Assembly (NCBI RefSeq): GCF_006065315.1
Contig: NZ_CP040749.1
Coordinates: forward strand, 1,750,501-1,814,500
Length of the DNA: 64,000 bases
Direction of reading: 5' to 3'
Source: Aureibaculum algae
Lineage (GTDB): Bacteria > Bacteroidota > Bacteroidia > Flavobacteriales > Flavobacteriaceae
Position numbers and translations under genes: made by a program
Part shown: piece by piece, positions 27,908 through 46,639 of the stretch
Numbering within the stretch: the first letter of the stretch is position 1
How the letters are laid out: each line of letters starts with the position of its first letter
Notes under the pieces: generated by a model
What the model saw: only the letters and a program-made list of their open reading frames with translations
The model's database searches: none
Told to the model about the DNA's origin: nothing

Positions 27908-27937
27908 TTGCAGAGAACGAAATTGATTGTATTTTTG
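27908..27937 (+). promoter_or_regulatory. Complete promoter of the SRP RNA gene
   Basis: Both elements of the Bacteroidota consensus are present: TTG at 27908-27910, a 19-bp spacer, and TATTTTTG at 27930-27937. Four bases later, at 27942, begins the GGGTAAG arm of the SRP RNA. This fixes the distance from box to start at four bases and supports the other start assignments in this window. Confidence 0.8.
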
Positions 27938-27941
27938 CCGT

Positions 27942-28037
27942 GGGTAAGTCCTACACAACCAGCTCCCTTTGAATCCTCCAGGGCAGGAATGCAGCAAAGG
28001 TATTAGGTCGTAGCGGTGTGATGTAGGTCGCTTACCC
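27942..28037 (+). ncRNA. ffs: Signal recognition particle RNA, small (4.5S-type)
   Basis: About 96 nt. The 5' arm GGGTAAG pairs with 3' CTTACCC (28031-28037). The conserved domain IV tip is recognisable: CCTCCAGGGCAGGAATGCAG with the GGAA tetraloop (27993-27996 region) and the following AAAGG strand. This RNA binds Ffh and targets membrane proteins to the translocon. A T-run follows the closing stem. The gene sits between divergent DUF4199 and SDR genes. Confidence 0.93.
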
Positions 28038-28144
28038 ATTTTTTATTTAATTTATTTAGTAGGTTAAATAGCTTCAGAAGAAATCAGTTTATCCACAATA
28101 GCTACATTTAATAATTTCTTACATTTACATTTTAAACAAATAGC

Positions 28145-32041: not shown

Positions 32042-33613
32042 TTATTTTTTCTCAGTAGGTTTGTCAACTACAATACGCTGATCACGATTTGCTAATTCCC
32101 AAGCAGTATGAAAAACTAAACGAGATCTGTTTTCTAATAAATCATATTCTATTTTGTCTGGAGTATCAGTATGTTGATGATAATCATCATGGGTTCCATT
32201 AAAATAAAAAATTACAGGGATATTATTTTTGGCAAAATTATAATGATCTGAACGATAGTAAAATCTATTCGGATCATTTTCATCATTATATGTATAATCT
32301 AATTCTACATTGGTATACTTTTTATTTACTTCTTCTGAAATATTATGCAAATCACTACTTAATTTATCACTTCCAATTAGGTAAACATAATTTCTATCAC
32401 CTTCTGTTCTTTTAGGGTCAGAACGACCAACCATATCTATATTTAAATCTACAACTGTATTTTCAAGAGGAAATATAGGATCAACATCAGCATAATAACG
32501 AGAACCTAATAACCCTTTTTCTTCTCCTGTTACATGAAGAAATACAACCGATCTTTTAGGAGTTTGTCCATTATCTGCAGCTTTTTTAAAAGCTTCTGCA
32601 ATTTCTAAAATAGCTACTGTACCAGAACCGTCGTCGTCAGCACCATTATAAACGTTTCCGTCTTTTACACCAACATGGTCTAAATGAGCAGAGATAATAA
32701 CATATTCGTCAGGTTTTTCAGATCCTTTAATATATGCGACTACATTTTCAGAATTAAAATCCTCTACATTTGATTTGTAAGTTAAAACAGCTGGAATTTT
32801 CACTGCTTTAGATGTTGAATTTGTGGTAATATCACTAACAATAGCTTCAGCTAATGCAGTGTTAACCATTAAGAAGTTTATTTTACTATCCTTTTTTTCG
32901 GTACTTTTTAGTCCCATTCTTGTTCTTCCAGAACCAAATCGTTTAGCAATATTAGCATAAGCATCAGGATTGTAATATAAAGCTGCTTTCGCACCTTTCT
33001 CCTTAGCAATATCCGTTTTAGAACTAAATTCTTGACGCATATTAGACCATTTTCCAGTACTTTCTTCAGTTCCAGAAATAATATAGTTACCGTCTTTATC
33101 TTTTGGTTCACCATTTTTGAACAACACTATTTTACCAGTAACATCTATATTCTTATAATCAGAATATTTTTCATCGTCAATACCGTAACCAACAAATATT
33201 ACTTCTTCAGCATTAATTGTTCCATTGCTTCCAGAAAATGAAACAAAATCGTCGACTGATTTATAATCTTTACCATTAATATGCACTGTAACCTCAGGAG
33301 AACTTGTACGTTCTAATGGTACTTTTTGAAAATACTCATCATTTGGCAACGCTGATGGTACATTTAAAGCGACATAATGTTTCTTTATAAATTCTATTGC
33401 TTTTTTCTGACCTGGTTCGCCAGTATCTCTTCCTTCGTATTCATCTGATGCGTATACATATAAGGCCTCTTTTAATTCTTCGGCCGTAATTGATTTCGCG
33501 TAATCTTCAACCGTTAAAGCTGGTTTAGCCGGAGTAGCCGAAGTTGTCTTTTTAGTACTATTACAGCTTACAAGTACAGCAGCTATTGCTAATAGGGATA
33601 AAATTTTTTTCAT
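32042..33613 (-). CDS. M28 family zinc peptidase, lipoprotein
   Basis: 523-residue envelope peptidase with a lipobox (LAIAAVLVSCNS). The dinuclear zinc site is complete: SAHLDHVG, GADDDGSGT, TGEEKGLLGSRYY, NIDMVGR and the final histidine in DDYHQHTD. A PA-like insertion precedes the catalytic domain (about 130-270). Members are aminopeptidases. The gene is monocistronic, ends at a terminator and has no strong promoter box that I can place. Confidence 0.93.
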   Translation of the reverse strand: MKKILSLLAIAAVLVSCNSTKKTTSATPAKPALTVEDYAKSITAEELKEALYVYASDEYEGRDTGEPGQKKAIEFIKKHYVALNVPSALPNDEYFQKVPLERTSSPEVTVHINGKDYKSVDDFVSFSGSNGTINAEEVIFVGYGIDDEKYSDYKNIDVTGKIVLFKNGEPKDKDGNYIISGTEESTGKWSNMRQEFSSKTDIAKEKGAKAALYYNPDAYANIAKRFGSGRTRMGLKSTEKKDSKINFLMVNTALAEAIVSDITTNSTSKAVKIPAVLTYKSNVEDFNSENVVAYIKGSEKPDEYVIISAHLDHVGVKDGNVYNGADDDGSGTVAILEIAEAFKKAADNGQTPKRSVVFLHVTGEEKGLLGSRYYADVDPIFPLENTVVDLNIDMVGRSDPKRTEGDRNYVYLIGSDKLSSDLHNISEEVNKKYTNVELDYTYNDENDPNRFYYRSDHYNFAKNNIPVIFYFNGTHDDYHQHTDTPDKIEYDLLENRSRLVFHTAWELANRDQRIVVDKPTEKK

Positions 33614-33713
33614 AAAAATAAATTGAGTTAATAGTAGTTGTTGATTATTAGAAATTTCAATTTACGATATTACGAAAAAAAAATGATATTTTTTTTAGGT
33701 ATAAAAGAGCTAA

Positions 33714-43173: not shown

Positions 43174-45162
43174 TTACAACTGCTCTTTCAACACTTTTAT
43201 TTCATCTCTTAATTGAGCGGCAACTAAAAAGTCTAATGCTTTGGCAGCTTTTTCCATCATTTTTTGACGATCTCTAATGCGTTTTTCAATTTCAGGTTTT
43301 GGTAAATATTCTAAATCCTCTTCAGCAGCTTTAGTTGCAGCGGCATCATAATGAAAAGAACTAATATTATTTTTACTTAAACTATCGTCTAGACTCTTTT
43401 TAATTTGCGTTGGGGTAATGTTATGTTTTGTATTGTATGCAATTTGCTTTTCACGCCGTCCGTTAGTTGCGTCAATAGTCAACTGCATGCTATTGGTAAT
43501 TTTATCGGCATACATAATAGCTCTACCGTTAATGTTTCTTGCAGCTCTACCAACTGTTTGGGTTAAAGAGCGTTGGCTACGTAAAAAACCTTCTTTATCG
43601 GCATCTAAAATAGCAACTAACGAAACTTCAGGTAGATCTAATCCTTCTCTTAGTAGGTTTACACCTACTAACACATCAAACAGGCCTTTACGAAGGTGTT
43701 GCATAATTTCTACGCGTTCCAAGGTATCAACATCACTGTGAATATAACGACATCGAATGTTAATTCTACTTAAATATTTGGTCAGTTCTTCTGCCATTCG
43801 TTTCGTTAAAGTAGTAACCAATGTCCGCTCGTCTCTTTCTACACGTAATTGAATTTCCTCGATTAAATCATCAATCTGATTTAAACTAGGTCTGATTTCA
43901 ATTTCTGGGTCCAATAAACCAGTAGGACGGATAATCTGTTCTACAAAAACACCTTCTGTCTTTTGCAATTCATAATCTGCAGGTGTGGCACTAACATAAA
44001 TTACCTGATTCTGAATTTCTTCAAATTCTTCAAATTTTAGTGGTCGGTTATCCATAGCAGCGGGTAAGCGGAATCCGTATTCTACTAAATTTTCTTTTCG
44101 AGAACGGTCACCTCCATACATAGCATGGGTTTGCGGTATGGTAACATGACTTTCATCAATCACCATTAAATAGTCCTCAGGAAAATAATCTAATAAACAG
44201 AAGGGGCGTGTACCAGGTTGTCTTCCGTCAAGGTAACGCGAGTAATTTTCTATCCCACTGCAATATCCTAATTCACGAATCATTTCTAAATCAAACTCGG
44301 TACGTTCCTTTAAACGTTTCGCTTCAAGATGTTTACCTATTTCTTTAAAGTAATCAACCTGCTTAACCATGTCTTCTTGTATGGCATGAATTGCATTTTG
44401 CAATACATCTGGCGAAGTCACAAATAAATTGGCAGGATATATCGTTAGTTTTTCAAATTTTTCAATGATTTGATTATTGACAATATCGAAACTTTCCATT
44501 TCTTCTATTTCATCACCAAAGAAATGAACACGATAGCCATAATCTCCATAGGAAGGGAAAATAGTAATTGTATCTCCTTTTACTTTAAAAGTCCCGCTTT
44601 TTACCTCAAATTCTGTTCTAGAATATAAGCTGGTAACCAATTGATGTAAAAACTTGGTCCGAGGAATCTTTTGATCAACCTCAATATGGATCACATTCTT
44701 TTTAAATTCAACGGGATTACCGATACCATATAAACAAGAAACGGAGGCTACTACTAATACATCTCTACGACCAGATAATAACGAAGATGTCGTGCTTAAT
44801 CGGAGTCGTTCAATATCATCATTTATAGAAAGATCTTTTTCAATATACAATCCACTTGAAGGAATATAGGCTTCAGGTTGATAATAGTCATAATAGGATA
44901 CAAAATATTCTACCGCATTATTAGGAAAAAAATGTTTAAACTCAGAATACAATTGTGCGGCCAACGTTTTATTATGAGCCAATACCAAAGTAGGTCGTTG
45001 AATATTATTAACAACATTGGCCACTGTAAAAGTTTTACCAGAACCCGTAACACCTAACAAGGTTTGATAGTTTTCGCCTGAAGCTATAGCTTCTGTAAGT
45101 TGTCTAATGGCTTCAGGTTGATCTCCTGTAGGTTTAAATTCTGATTTTAAGTCGAATTGCAT
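43174..45162 (-). CDS. uvrB: Excinuclease ABC subunit UvrB
   Basis: UvrB verifies DNA damage after loading by UvrA and recruits UvrC in nucleotide excision repair. The 662-residue protein has Walker A GVTGSGKT at 37-44, the beta-hairpin region FVSYYDYYQPEAYIPSS, the DESH box near 336-339, SQRSLTQTVGRAARN in the helicase domain 2, and a C-terminal UVR motif (KMMEKAAKALDFLVAAQLRDE). Length is standard. TATTTTTG stands exactly four bases before the ATG, predicting a leaderless transcript. Confidence 0.98.
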   Translation of the reverse strand: MQFDLKSEFKPTGDQPEAIRQLTEAIASGENYQTLLGVTGSGKTFTVANVVNNIQRPTLVLAHNKTLAAQLYSEFKHFFPNNAVEYFVSYYDYYQPEAYIPSSGLYIEKDLSINDDIERLRLSTTSSLLSGRRDVLVVASVSCLYGIGNPVEFKKNVIHIEVDQKIPRTKFLHQLVTSLYSRTEFEVKSGTFKVKGDTITIFPSYGDYGYRVHFFGDEIEEMESFDIVNNQIIEKFEKLTIYPANLFVTSPDVLQNAIHAIQEDMVKQVDYFKEIGKHLEAKRLKERTEFDLEMIRELGYCSGIENYSRYLDGRQPGTRPFCLLDYFPEDYLMVIDESHVTIPQTHAMYGGDRSRKENLVEYGFRLPAAMDNRPLKFEEFEEIQNQVIYVSATPADYELQKTEGVFVEQIIRPTGLLDPEIEIRPSLNQIDDLIEEIQLRVERDERTLVTTLTKRMAEELTKYLSRINIRCRYIHSDVDTLERVEIMQHLRKGLFDVLVGVNLLREGLDLPEVSLVAILDADKEGFLRSQRSLTQTVGRAARNINGRAIMYADKITNSMQLTIDATNGRREKQIAYNTKHNITPTQIKKSLDDSLSKNNISSFHYDAAATKAAEEDLEYLPKPEIEKRIRDRQKMMEKAAKALDFLVAAQLRDEIKVLKEQL

Positions 45163-45276: not shown

Positions 45277-45292
45277 ACGATAACGTTATCGT
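45277..45292. promoter_or_regulatory. 16-bp perfect palindrome, operator-like
   Basis: ACGATAACGTTATCGT is its own reverse complement, with a central CG as in operators bound by LacI-family repressors. It lies between the divergent uvrB promoter and the first small-RNA promoter (68 bp upstream of its -7 box). It is not repeated at the second copy. No regulator gene is nearby. Confidence 0.4.
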
Positions 45293-45367
45293 TAACATTA
45301 ATTAACACTAAGTATAAATTGTTTAATACTAATTTAACATTAAACGATGAATTCCGCCTTAAATTTG
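45293..45367 (+). promoter_or_regulatory. Promoter region of small RNA copy 1
   Basis: TAAATTTG at 45360-45367 is a full TAnnTTTG match. Upstream, about 65 bp rich in TTAACATTAA-type words (45293-45357) is conserved at the second copy, suggesting an activator site in place of a clear -33 TTG. Confidence 0.6.
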
Positions 45368-45371
45368 CGGT

Positions 45372-45434
45372 ATATTATTTGAGTTAGTTAGTTAAATAAT
45401 GGGTGTTGGTTCATAAACAATGCCCATTTTTTTT
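45372..45434 (+). ncRNA. Predicted small RNA, copy 1
   Basis: A ~63-nt RNA is predicted to start four bases after the -7 box. Hairpin 1 pairs ATTATTT (45374-45380) with AAATAAT (45394-45400) around a 13-base loop carrying GTTAGTTAGTT. Hairpin 2 is an intrinsic terminator: an 11-bp stem, AATGGGTGTTG (45398-45408) with CAATGCCCATT (45418-45428), including two G-T wobbles, then a T-run to 45435. No frame of protein-coding character is present. The near-identical second copy 266 bp downstream supports function. Confidence 0.65.
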
Positions 45435-45558
45435 TGAATATAACTTCAATACGTATTTTAAAATACACGATTTTCTGGAAAACTTACTGTTTTAGATTTC
45501 TACGCTTCTAAATGAAATTGATAATTTTCCATATAATTCAATTTAAATCTTAAAATTT

Positions 45559-45633
45559 TAACAATTATTAACATTAATCGTAAATTGTTTAATAGTAATT
45601 TAACATTAATCAAAAAATTCTGCCTTAAATTTG
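45559..45633 (+). promoter_or_regulatory. Promoter region of small RNA copy 2
   Basis: TAAATTTG at 45626-45633 repeats the -7 box of copy 1, with the same upstream words (TAACATTAAT, TAAATTGTTTAATA) in the preceding 65 bp. Confidence 0.6.
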
Positions 45634-45637
45634 TTGT

Positions 45638-45700
45638 ATATTATTTGAGTTAGTTAGTTAAATAATGGGTATTGGTTCATAAACAATACCCATTTTTTTT
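45638..45700 (+). ncRNA. Predicted small RNA, copy 2
   Basis: Transcribed part matches copy 1 at all but two positions. Both changes lie in the terminator stem and turn G-T wobbles into A-T pairs: AATGGGTATTG (45664-45674) now pairs perfectly with CAATACCCATT (45684-45694). The first hairpin and the GTTAGTTAGTT loop are unchanged. It is followed by the convergent ABC permease gene. Confidence 0.65.
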
Positions 45701-45760: not shown

Positions 45761-46639
45761 CTACAAATCTCTTTTCTTTAATATGGCGTAAGAAGCATAA
45801 ATAAAAATAAATATCCAAACAGTAGCAATTACAATTTGATACCAATGTACACTAACATCAAAAGCAAAATTTTGCCCTAATTGTTTTCCGGCAGTTTGTA
45901 TCGCATTTAGTTTTGTAAAAGGTTGTTTTATCAAGTTAGCCATAGACTCTAATGGGAAAAACTGCATGATATCATTTACACCAATGGAAGATAACGAGTC
46001 GCTATTAACGGTATTATTTGATACGAGTTTATCGGAATTAAATTTCCAATATAGAAATCCCTTAAAAATATTTTCTACAAAAAACCATACGAGAATACCT
46101 CCAACCGCAAAGGCTGATCGTTTCACTAGAATCCCCATAAAAAGACCAAACGAAAAGAAAGCAGTTAATTTTATAAAGAATGCCAAAAGATAACCGAGAT
46201 CAGAAAAAATAATACTTAACTCATTAAAATCTGAATAAATTAGGCCTAAGATCATTGATACTACAAATACAAAAAATGTAGAAATTGCAGCAAAAACAAT
46301 TACAGTATAAAATTTTGATAGAATAAATTCCTTTTTACTTAAACCGTCAATTAAGTTTTGCTTCAATGTTTTATTACTATACTCATTTGCCATCATAGAG
46401 ACTATTACCAAGAGTAAAAAGAACTTAAAGATAGATGCCATATAAGTATTGAAATGCCAGATATAAGGAAAGTTAAAAATACCTTGATCGGCTAAATGGA
46501 ATTTTATAACACCAATATCAAATTTTATAGCTGCGATTAATGCAATTGATGTAAGTAGAGCAAAGTAGATGATAGTAAGCACTCTACTGGCTCTGTTGTG
46601 TTTTAGTTTGTGAAATTCTATGTTTAAAAGTCGTAACAT
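45761..46639 (-). CDS. ABC-2 type transporter permease
   Basis: 292-residue membrane protein with six hydrophobic segments (for example FKFFLLLVIVSMMANEYSNK, AISTFFVFVVSMILGLIY, LVWFFVENIFKGFLYW), the ABC-2 permease arrangement. N-terminal LNIEFHKLKHNR is typical of the NatB/bacitracin-like subgroup. Substrate unknown. It is 18 bp downstream of its ATPase gene and convergent with the second small RNA. Confidence 0.9.
   Translation of the reverse strand: MLRLLNIEFHKLKHNRASRVLTIIYFALLTSIALIAAIKFDIGVIKFHLADQGIFNFPYIWHFNTYMASIFKFFLLLVIVSMMANEYSNKTLKQNLIDGLSKKEFILSKFYTVIVFAAISTFFVFVVSMILGLIYSDFNELSIIFSDLGYLLAFFIKLTAFFSFGLFMGILVKRSAFAVGGILVWFFVENIFKGFLYWKFNSDKLVSNNTVNSDSLSSIGVNDIMQFFPLESMANLIKQPFTKLNAIQTAGKQLGQNFAFDVSVHWYQIVIATVWIFIFIYASYAILKKRDL

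Follow-up and report, generated by a model that had tools for sequence, protein, structure and literature searches.

A tandem pair of predicted small RNAs in Aureibaculum algae is best read as two standalone sRNAs of a new family in flavobacteria, with transcription predicted from the DNA. The pair lies in the window, by which we mean the whole 64,000-nt stretch of DNA that was analyzed. A sequence-only reading of the window had proposed a paralogous pair of trans-acting RNAs. This is still the best reading, given a promoter box in each copy, a conserved core, a compensated terminator, a conserved locus with 1 to 3 copies per genome, and complementarity to susC leaders. The core reaches beyond the single window of that first reading, and also stands at the 3' ends of operons, PULs among them.

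Two tandem units with a promoter box, a conserved core and a terminator

The locus contains a direct repeat of two 143-nt units with 89% identity (45292-45434 and 45558-45700). Repeat analysis confirmed the previously described spacing of 266 bp between the units. Each unit has a promoter box, TAAATTTG, and a predicted RNA of approximately 63 nt with a terminator at its end. The box, said earlier to be perfect in each copy, was indeed present at 45360-45367 and 45626-45633, and we take it to be the -7 type box of Bacteroidota. The duplication had been described as limited to box and RNA, with unrelated DNA between the copies, but approximately 78 nt 5' of each RNA belong to it as well. The features of the locus are as follows.

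45292..45370, plus strand: upstream region of copy 1, with TTAACA-type repeats, a TTGTTTAATA block and the box TAAATTTG (45360-45367); from the 143-nt direct repeat, alignable in 14 tandem-locus copies of 9 genus genomes
45371..45434, plus strand: predicted sRNA copy 1, approximately 63 nt; from the box, fold, copy comparison and genus alignment, with a predicted start site
45375..45389, plus strand: conserved core TTATTTGAGTTAGTT (seed) of copy 1; exact match, core of the alignment
45399..45435, plus strand: terminator hairpin and T-run of copy 1; from the fold and pair counts
45558..45636, plus strand: upstream region of copy 2, with the box TAAATTTG (45626-45633); from the direct repeat and genus alignment
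45637..45700, plus strand: predicted sRNA copy 2, approximately 63 nt; from the box, fold, copy comparison and genus alignment, with a predicted start site
45641..45655, plus strand: conserved core TTATTTGAGTTAGTT (seed) of copy 2; exact match
45665..45700, plus strand: terminator hairpin and T-run of copy 2; from the fold and pair counts
43174..45162, minus strand: uvrB, divergent flanking gene; next to the sRNA at all 8 of the 8 genus loci that were tested
45761..46639, minus strand: ABC-type permease-like gene, convergent with the sRNAs; present in 7 of 8 genus loci tested

TTAACA repeats with a spacing of approximately 10 bp lie 5' of both boxes (45292-45359 and 45558-45625) and are conserved in the genus. 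They are possibly a regulator site or an UP-like element.

Because both neighbors, uvrB and the ABC gene, lie on the minus strand, we rejected a 5' leader or riboswitch of a neighboring gene, as the first reading had done for a 5' leader. A small ORF inside the RNA was also rejected; the frame in question has five codons, begins with an ATG in the terminator stem, and is not kept in relatives.

Structure of the predicted RNAs

The RNA parts of the two copies are identical at 61 of 63 positions. The two differences, which had been noted from the letters alone as the only ones, both turn a G-U wobble in the terminator stem into an A-U pair. The predicted fold is a weak first hairpin, which covers the seed, followed by a strong terminator hairpin with a T-run. 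The fold energies are -15.6 and -16.6 kcal/mol (z of -3.5 and -4.0 relative to dinucleotide shuffles), and 0 of 200 and 1 of 200 shuffles folded as well as the copies. Folding by itself leaves the strand unfixed, since a stable fold (z of -3.3) is also predicted for the opposite strand of copy 2. A simple terminator scan missed both terminators because the predicted loop has 9 bases and the scan was limited to loops of 8.

We analyzed base pairing over 12 distinct rows of the alignment. In the terminator stem, 100% of cells were paired and three pairs were compensated; in the outer helix of the first hairpin, 83% of cells were paired and there were no compensatory changes. For the whole structure, three of five measures (paired cells, cells with changes in both partners, covariation score) were greater than in every shuffle; the counts of compensated pairs (218 of 500 shuffles) and of pair types (495 of 500) were not above shuffles. 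Thus, of the two hairpins and T-run terminator that had been described, the terminator held up well and the first hairpin less so. On the evidence of the alignment, the conserved feature is the linear sequence, with the first hairpin weakly supported. Given the lack of compensatory change in its outer helix, we rejected the first hairpin as the key part of the RNA. The proposal that its loop is the active part found no support for the same reason, and it is the linear core that is conserved.

Conservation of the locus in Aureibaculum

Of 60 related genomes searched at the DNA level, nine contain the unit, all of them among the 17 genomes of the genus and including that of A. algae itself; others were from A. 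luteum, A. flavum and A. marinum. There were no matches in the 43 genomes of relatives outside the genus at E 1e-4. The numbers of tandem-locus copies in the nine genomes are 2, 2, 2, 3, 1, 1, 1, 1 and 1 (14 in total), and one genome (G007) has one more short match outside the tandem locus. The position between uvrB and the ABC gene, which the first reading had treated as a mark of a genuine locus, was consistent (8 of 8 and 7 of 8 genus loci tested, respectively). Kept in the alignments are the long upstream region, with its TTAACA repeats and TTGTTTAATA, the core TTATTTGAGTTAGTT and the terminator. The core differs by one base in one copy (L022), and the invariant feature is a linear core that reads UUAUUUGAGUUAGUU almost without exception. 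Conserved relatives with a covarying structure had been anticipated, and we found conservation of the locus in 9 of 17 genus genomes and covariation in the terminator; the first hairpin did not share in it.

One A. flavum copy (L011) has a seed that is 12 nt longer, with three additional GTTA-type units. It is a natural variant in seed length.

The core as a 3'-end element in the A. algae genome

The core often stands at the end of polysaccharide-utilization (susCD) operons in the A. algae genome. The exact 15-mer core is present at 11 sites, compared to none for the reversed control, and all but one of them (10 of 11) lead into an intrinsic terminator, as judged by eye. Besides the tandem pair, seven exact sites come after stop codons: five of SusD genes, one of a GH92 gene and one of a 185-aa ORF. 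Another lies approximately 105 nt past a lipoyl-synthase-like gene, and one (L052) has neither the upstream gene nor the terminator of the other sites. A looser search added sites past DUF3823, alkaline phosphatase, CotH and RskA_C genes. The core was within 60 nt of the stop codon in 8 of 29 SusD genes (five exact, one with two mismatches, and two with only the center, TTTTGAGTTA, also given as TTTGAGTT), and in certain other PULs it sits past a later gene.

In 22 PUL-centered stretches of the genome (475,422 bases), the core with at most 3 mismatches was found at 9 of 52 terminators, compared to 0.6 per shuffled core. Relaxed counts over the genome gave no excess over reversed controls. With 2 mismatches allowed, the 15-mer had 85 matches and its control 79; a 16-mer had 18 and its control 21; and the core followed by a gap and a T-run gave 20 rows, from 16 distinct starts, compared to 15. 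Our analysis therefore rests on exact or terminator-linked sites.

Two further sites may be sRNA genes. Near 1,473,766 on the minus strand (L045), core and terminator lie approximately 105 nt past a lipoyl-synthase-like gene and are preceded by TGGCATGGAACTTGC, which looks like a sigma-54 site; the locus may hold one more standalone sRNA, controlled by a different sigma factor. At 2,376,750 on the plus strand (L059), TAAATTTG is directly 5' of a one-mismatch core and terminator approximately 115 nt past a SusD-like ORF, making this site a candidate for another standalone sRNA.

The core directly precedes terminators and contains TGA and TAG. It could be a terminator accessory or a feature of mRNA ends, such as stop codons in two frames or a processing site, that has no function in trans, with the tandem loci as relics. 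We regard this as improbable. Even in the PUL-centered stretches, a minority of terminators carry the core (the 9 of 52 above), and the sRNA loci retain the promoter region, the core and the compensated terminator. Any stop-rich text would serve such a function, yet the exact core is kept across genera.

The core in other genomes

We scanned one genome per species from 84,980 species with a 19-mer of the core and found 80 sites in 77 stretches of public genomes. Two of the stretches are from clearly unrelated organisms (L116 and L170). The remaining stretches have flavobacterial or unspecific Bacteroidota titles, including Winogradskyella, Psychroserpens, Allomuricauda, Croceivirga, Sinomicrobium, Aureibaculum and others; one metagenome-assembled genome is titled Algicola. 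A terminator was found within 45 nt in 69 of the 80 sites, compared to 112 of 1600 positions drawn at random from these stretches. At 60 of the 80 sites, an ORF of at least 60 aa ends at most 260 nt upstream. The proteins from these 60 ORFs include 36 ankyrin-repeat proteins, 6 with Laminin_G_3 and a few SusD proteins. That 36 of the 60 are ankyrin-repeat rather than PUL proteins is a point against a PUL-centered model, and ankyrin-repeat genes are a non-PUL home of the core element.

Many Winogradskyella and Psychroserpens species (among L106-L176) have the core and terminator past an exported-looking ankyrin-repeat gene of approximately 130 aa. In four Sinomicrobium records (L154, L166, L168 and L171), which by eye look like one conserved locus, the core and terminator have no upstream ORF; these are probably standalone sRNAs of another genus.

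Within the family, the exact 15-mer had 56 matches in 249 genomes, compared to 8 for the reversed control, and 40 compared to 8 when the genus Aureibaculum was omitted. There was no enrichment of the exact core in 266 genomes outside the family (9 matches versus 15 for the control).

Same-sense copies of the core are shared by the sRNAs and the 3' UTRs, in other genera the core is found at genes outside PULs, and UUAG-type repeats resemble single-stranded protein sites. These points would fit a site for a putative RNA-binding protein or nuclease that acts on PUL 3' UTRs, with the tandem sRNAs as sponges and the susC match secondary. We consider this explanation unlikely. It leaves the enrichment of core-complementary stretches in susC leaders (below) unexplained, and the genome has zero RRM-1 proteins at E 0.001, a count that concerns the RRM-1 fold only.

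Complementarity of the core to susC leaders

We read the leaders of 25 susC ORFs of at least 700 aa, found in the DNA 5' of 29 SusD genes. Four of the 29 PULs had no 700-aa susC ORF in the stretch; three (L214, L217 and L221) were left unscored, and one (L204) was added by hand later. Many susC leaders have ACTAACTCAA, TTAACTCAAA or ACTAACTTAA directly 5' of the ATG; the complementarity of these stretches to the core includes G-U pairs in some cases. A duplex of -11 kcal/mol or stronger was predicted for 11 of the 25 susC leaders, compared to 3 of 114 other leaders, and one of these three is probably a susC leader missed by the ORF cut-off (L204, by eye). The other 14 susC leaders were weaker than -11 kcal/mol, which counts against a model of action on susC. 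None of 300 shuffled seeds reached the mean energy of the susC leaders.

The same analysis was done with susC leaders from other genomes, using the best-scoring 30 susC genes per search; a usable start was present at 29 of 30 loci in the sets from other genera and the outgroup. In three genomes of the genus, 18 of 30 leaders, a set that includes orthologs of the A. algae genes, were at -11 kcal/mol or stronger (0 of 500 shuffled seeds matched this). The number was 9 of 29 in four genomes of other core-bearing genera (2 of 500 shuffled seeds). Four outgroup genomes from other families gave 2 of 29, no different from shuffles (58 of 500), and with a leader G+C content of 0.34, versus 0.22, this outgroup is an imperfect control. 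Most sites of -10 kcal/mol or stronger start within 28 nt of the ATG (10 of 12 in A. algae and 19 of 21 in the genus).

Counts of exact words gave a similar picture within the genus. An exact 7-mer of the reverse complement of the seed was present in 14 of 24 A. algae susC leaders, with L199 left out (shuffled mean of 4.6, 0 of 500 as high), and in 22 of 30 genus susC leaders (shuffled mean of 5.1, 0 of 500). The number was not significant in other genera (10 of 29 leaders; shuffled mean of 6.5, 93 of 500), and the outgroup had 5 of 29 (116 of 500). Among other A. algae leaders, 28 of 300 had such a word, with a shuffled mean of 57. In a word count made without reference to the seed, exact reverse-complement words accounted for 7 of the 14 leading 6-mers and 5 of the 14 leading 7-mers in the A. 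algae susC leaders. The top 6-mer (TTAACT) and 7-mer (TACTAAC) are near, but not exact, words of the reverse complement. In two sets of orthologs (A and B), the site is retained and the DNA further upstream has diverged; in several further sets the whole leader is near-identical and uninformative. The susC motif is only partly present in other genera, and one Winogradskyella susC checked beside a 3' core had no site. By these comparisons, the link to susC outside Aureibaculum is weak.

Could the leader motif (ACTAACTCAA, ACTAACTTAA and similar) be a translation or transcription signal of susC itself, with coincidental complementarity to the sRNAs? In its favor, the regions just before start codons in this phylum are rich in A and U and may contain enhancers, the first word of each enrichment list falls short of an exact complement of the seed, and other genera have part of the motif only. 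Against this, the partner element was found first and independently, an exact 7-mer of its complement is missing from 272 of 300 other A. algae leaders, susC leaders of the outgroup are no different from shuffles (58 of 500), and the motif and the 3' core occur together in PULs, by a grouping made by hand. We judge that a leader signal of this kind has little chance of being the explanation.

Over 325 gene starts of A. algae (from the PUL-centered stretches and the window), 13 reached -12 kcal/mol, compared to 3.2 expected from shuffled seeds, and 22 reached -10.5, compared to 12.2 expected. Eight of the 13 are scored susC genes and two more are susC or TonB-receptor-like by eye. The others, also named by eye, are an FtsY-like ORF, a 124-aa ORF and a lipoprotein-like ORF with its ATG at 33613, which is a predicted target in the window.

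33614..33640, minus strand: predicted target, the leader of the 523-aa lipoprotein-like ORF (by eye; ATG 33613), in which a TTAACTCAATTTA stretch is predicted to pair with the seed at -12.6 kcal/mol

At 2,919,245 (L035), the leader of a 280-aa exported protein, DUF2911-like by eye, has 19 consecutive base pairs with the seed (-19.3 kcal/mol). This was the strongest leader in the energy test of the 25 susC and 114 other leaders and is the strongest non-PUL target predicted in this analysis.

Relation between 3' cores and susC sites of the same PULs

The mean energy of the susC site was -11.5 in PULs with a 3' core and -8.4 in PULs without one (12 versus 12, p of 0.007). The two groups were assigned by hand after the energies were known, not all operons were traced to their ends, and L199 (overlap) and L203 (uncertain start) were left out. 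The core showed no preference for the susC of its own operon (permutation p of 0.96 over 11 PULs). We therefore rejected looping in cis of the 3' core onto its own susC; the lack of preference fits a shared network acting in trans better.

In one PUL (L199; 750,084-750,113), a core-like sequence with two mismatches and a terminator overlap a susC leader on the opposite strand. This is a cis-antisense version of the same complementarity. The strong site of this leader is the overlap itself, which counts against its use as evidence.

A model for action on susC translation

At the level of sequence we have the duplication, its conservation, the compensation in the terminator, the core before terminators at the ends of PUL and surface-protein operons, and the enrichment at susC starts in Aureibaculum. 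We think it somewhat probable that the standalone sRNA pair and the PUL 3' UTRs carry an anti-susC seed that acts in trans on susC translation. Each RNA would consist of a short 5' seed, UUAUUUGAGUUAGUUAGUU, directly joined to an intrinsic terminator, and both would be transcribed. The seed would pair with the susC leader, at most sites no more than 28 nt from the ATG, and pairing would block ribosome loading and lower susC(D) translation in trans. Copies in 3' UTRs would act likewise, either as processed 3'-UTR-derived sRNAs or within the mRNA, so that transcription of one PUL would damp the importers of other PULs. Repression as the outcome is suggested by the position of the sites and by analogy with FopS.

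Comparison with known RNAs

The first reading had not recognized the RNA family, and no Rfam family, including flavo-1, matched the tandem locus at cut-off. A Bacteroidales small SRP RNA (RF04183) at 27935-28041 of the window (plus strand) was the only window match at gathering score. At E values up to 5 there were seven chance-level matches (E 1.5-4.7), all far below cut-offs. FopS, if included in that Rfam release, was not among these seven. A scan of 16 of the 77 named contigs found two tRNAs and nothing at the core. With no match for the RNAs at gathering cut-off in the window or in the 16 contigs, a known Rfam family was rejected. We found no earlier report of this RNA among the matches listed in open-licence literature.

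OmrA and OmrB are Proteobacterial, Hfq-dependent RNAs with genes arranged in tandem. Like our pair, they are paralogous sRNA genes with a shared seed (PMC11697453).

The closest parallel is with FopS and GibS. As described in PMC11697453 and PMC7366714, these RNAs are multicopy and have a single-stranded, conserved 5' seed followed by a terminator, as do the RNAs described here. Both groups pair at translation start regions, susC in particular, the pairing here being computational only. According to PMC11697453, FopS sRNAs repress susC translation in Bacteroides thetaiotaomicron and may extend to further PULs, so the new RNAs would resemble a known system in action. Our two standalone copies and the 3'-end copies of the core parallel the multicopy nature of FopS, but just 1 of the 14 FopS members described there is derived from a 3' UTR, whereas here the core is in many operon 3' ends. 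RbpB, the partner of FopS and GibS, is an RRM-1 domain protein, and none was found here: RRM-1 (PF00076) had 0 matches at E 0.001 in the A. algae genome and was present in a Bacteroides control genome. An RbpB-type RRM partner was therefore rejected. Because there was no Rfam match and no RRM-1 partner was found, we did not file the tandem RNAs as FopS members; the parallel between the two groups concerns layout and predicted action.

DonS, as described in PMC7366714, is another case of RNA control of susC in PULs and is encoded in cis-antisense to the susC that it controls. No susC adjoins the tandem pair, whose action would be in trans; the PUL with an overlapping opposite-strand core (L199) has the DonS-like layout. 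Rfp18 of Flavobacterium psychrophilum is a conserved sRNA from the same bacterial family that is thought to act in trans, but it is tied to metalloproteases through a third stem-loop (PMC9723704).

Implications for polysaccharide use in Flavobacteriaceae

The analysis yields a concrete, testable seed, together with a site in susC leaders that it may target and a candidate regulon. It also provides a candidate new RNA family with a core that doubles as an operon-end marker. If the proposed action on susC is correct, it would be a flavobacterial counterpart of FopS-like susC control that uses a different RNA and no RRM-1 protein, and PUL 3' UTRs would regulate other PULs.

Marine Flavobacteriaceae degrade much of the algal polysaccharide of the ocean, and to our knowledge little is known of how dozens of PULs are ranked post-transcriptionally. 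We tentatively suggest, as a possibility that is still doubtful, a pan-PUL RNA network in these bacteria in which many PUL mRNAs end in a shared anti-susC seed, an inhibitor of the importers of other PULs that each active PUL would either release or display, the standalone pair sets a base level, and no RRM-1 protein takes part. In such a network, the hierarchy of sugars would be set by competition of 3' UTRs for a common site in susC leaders.
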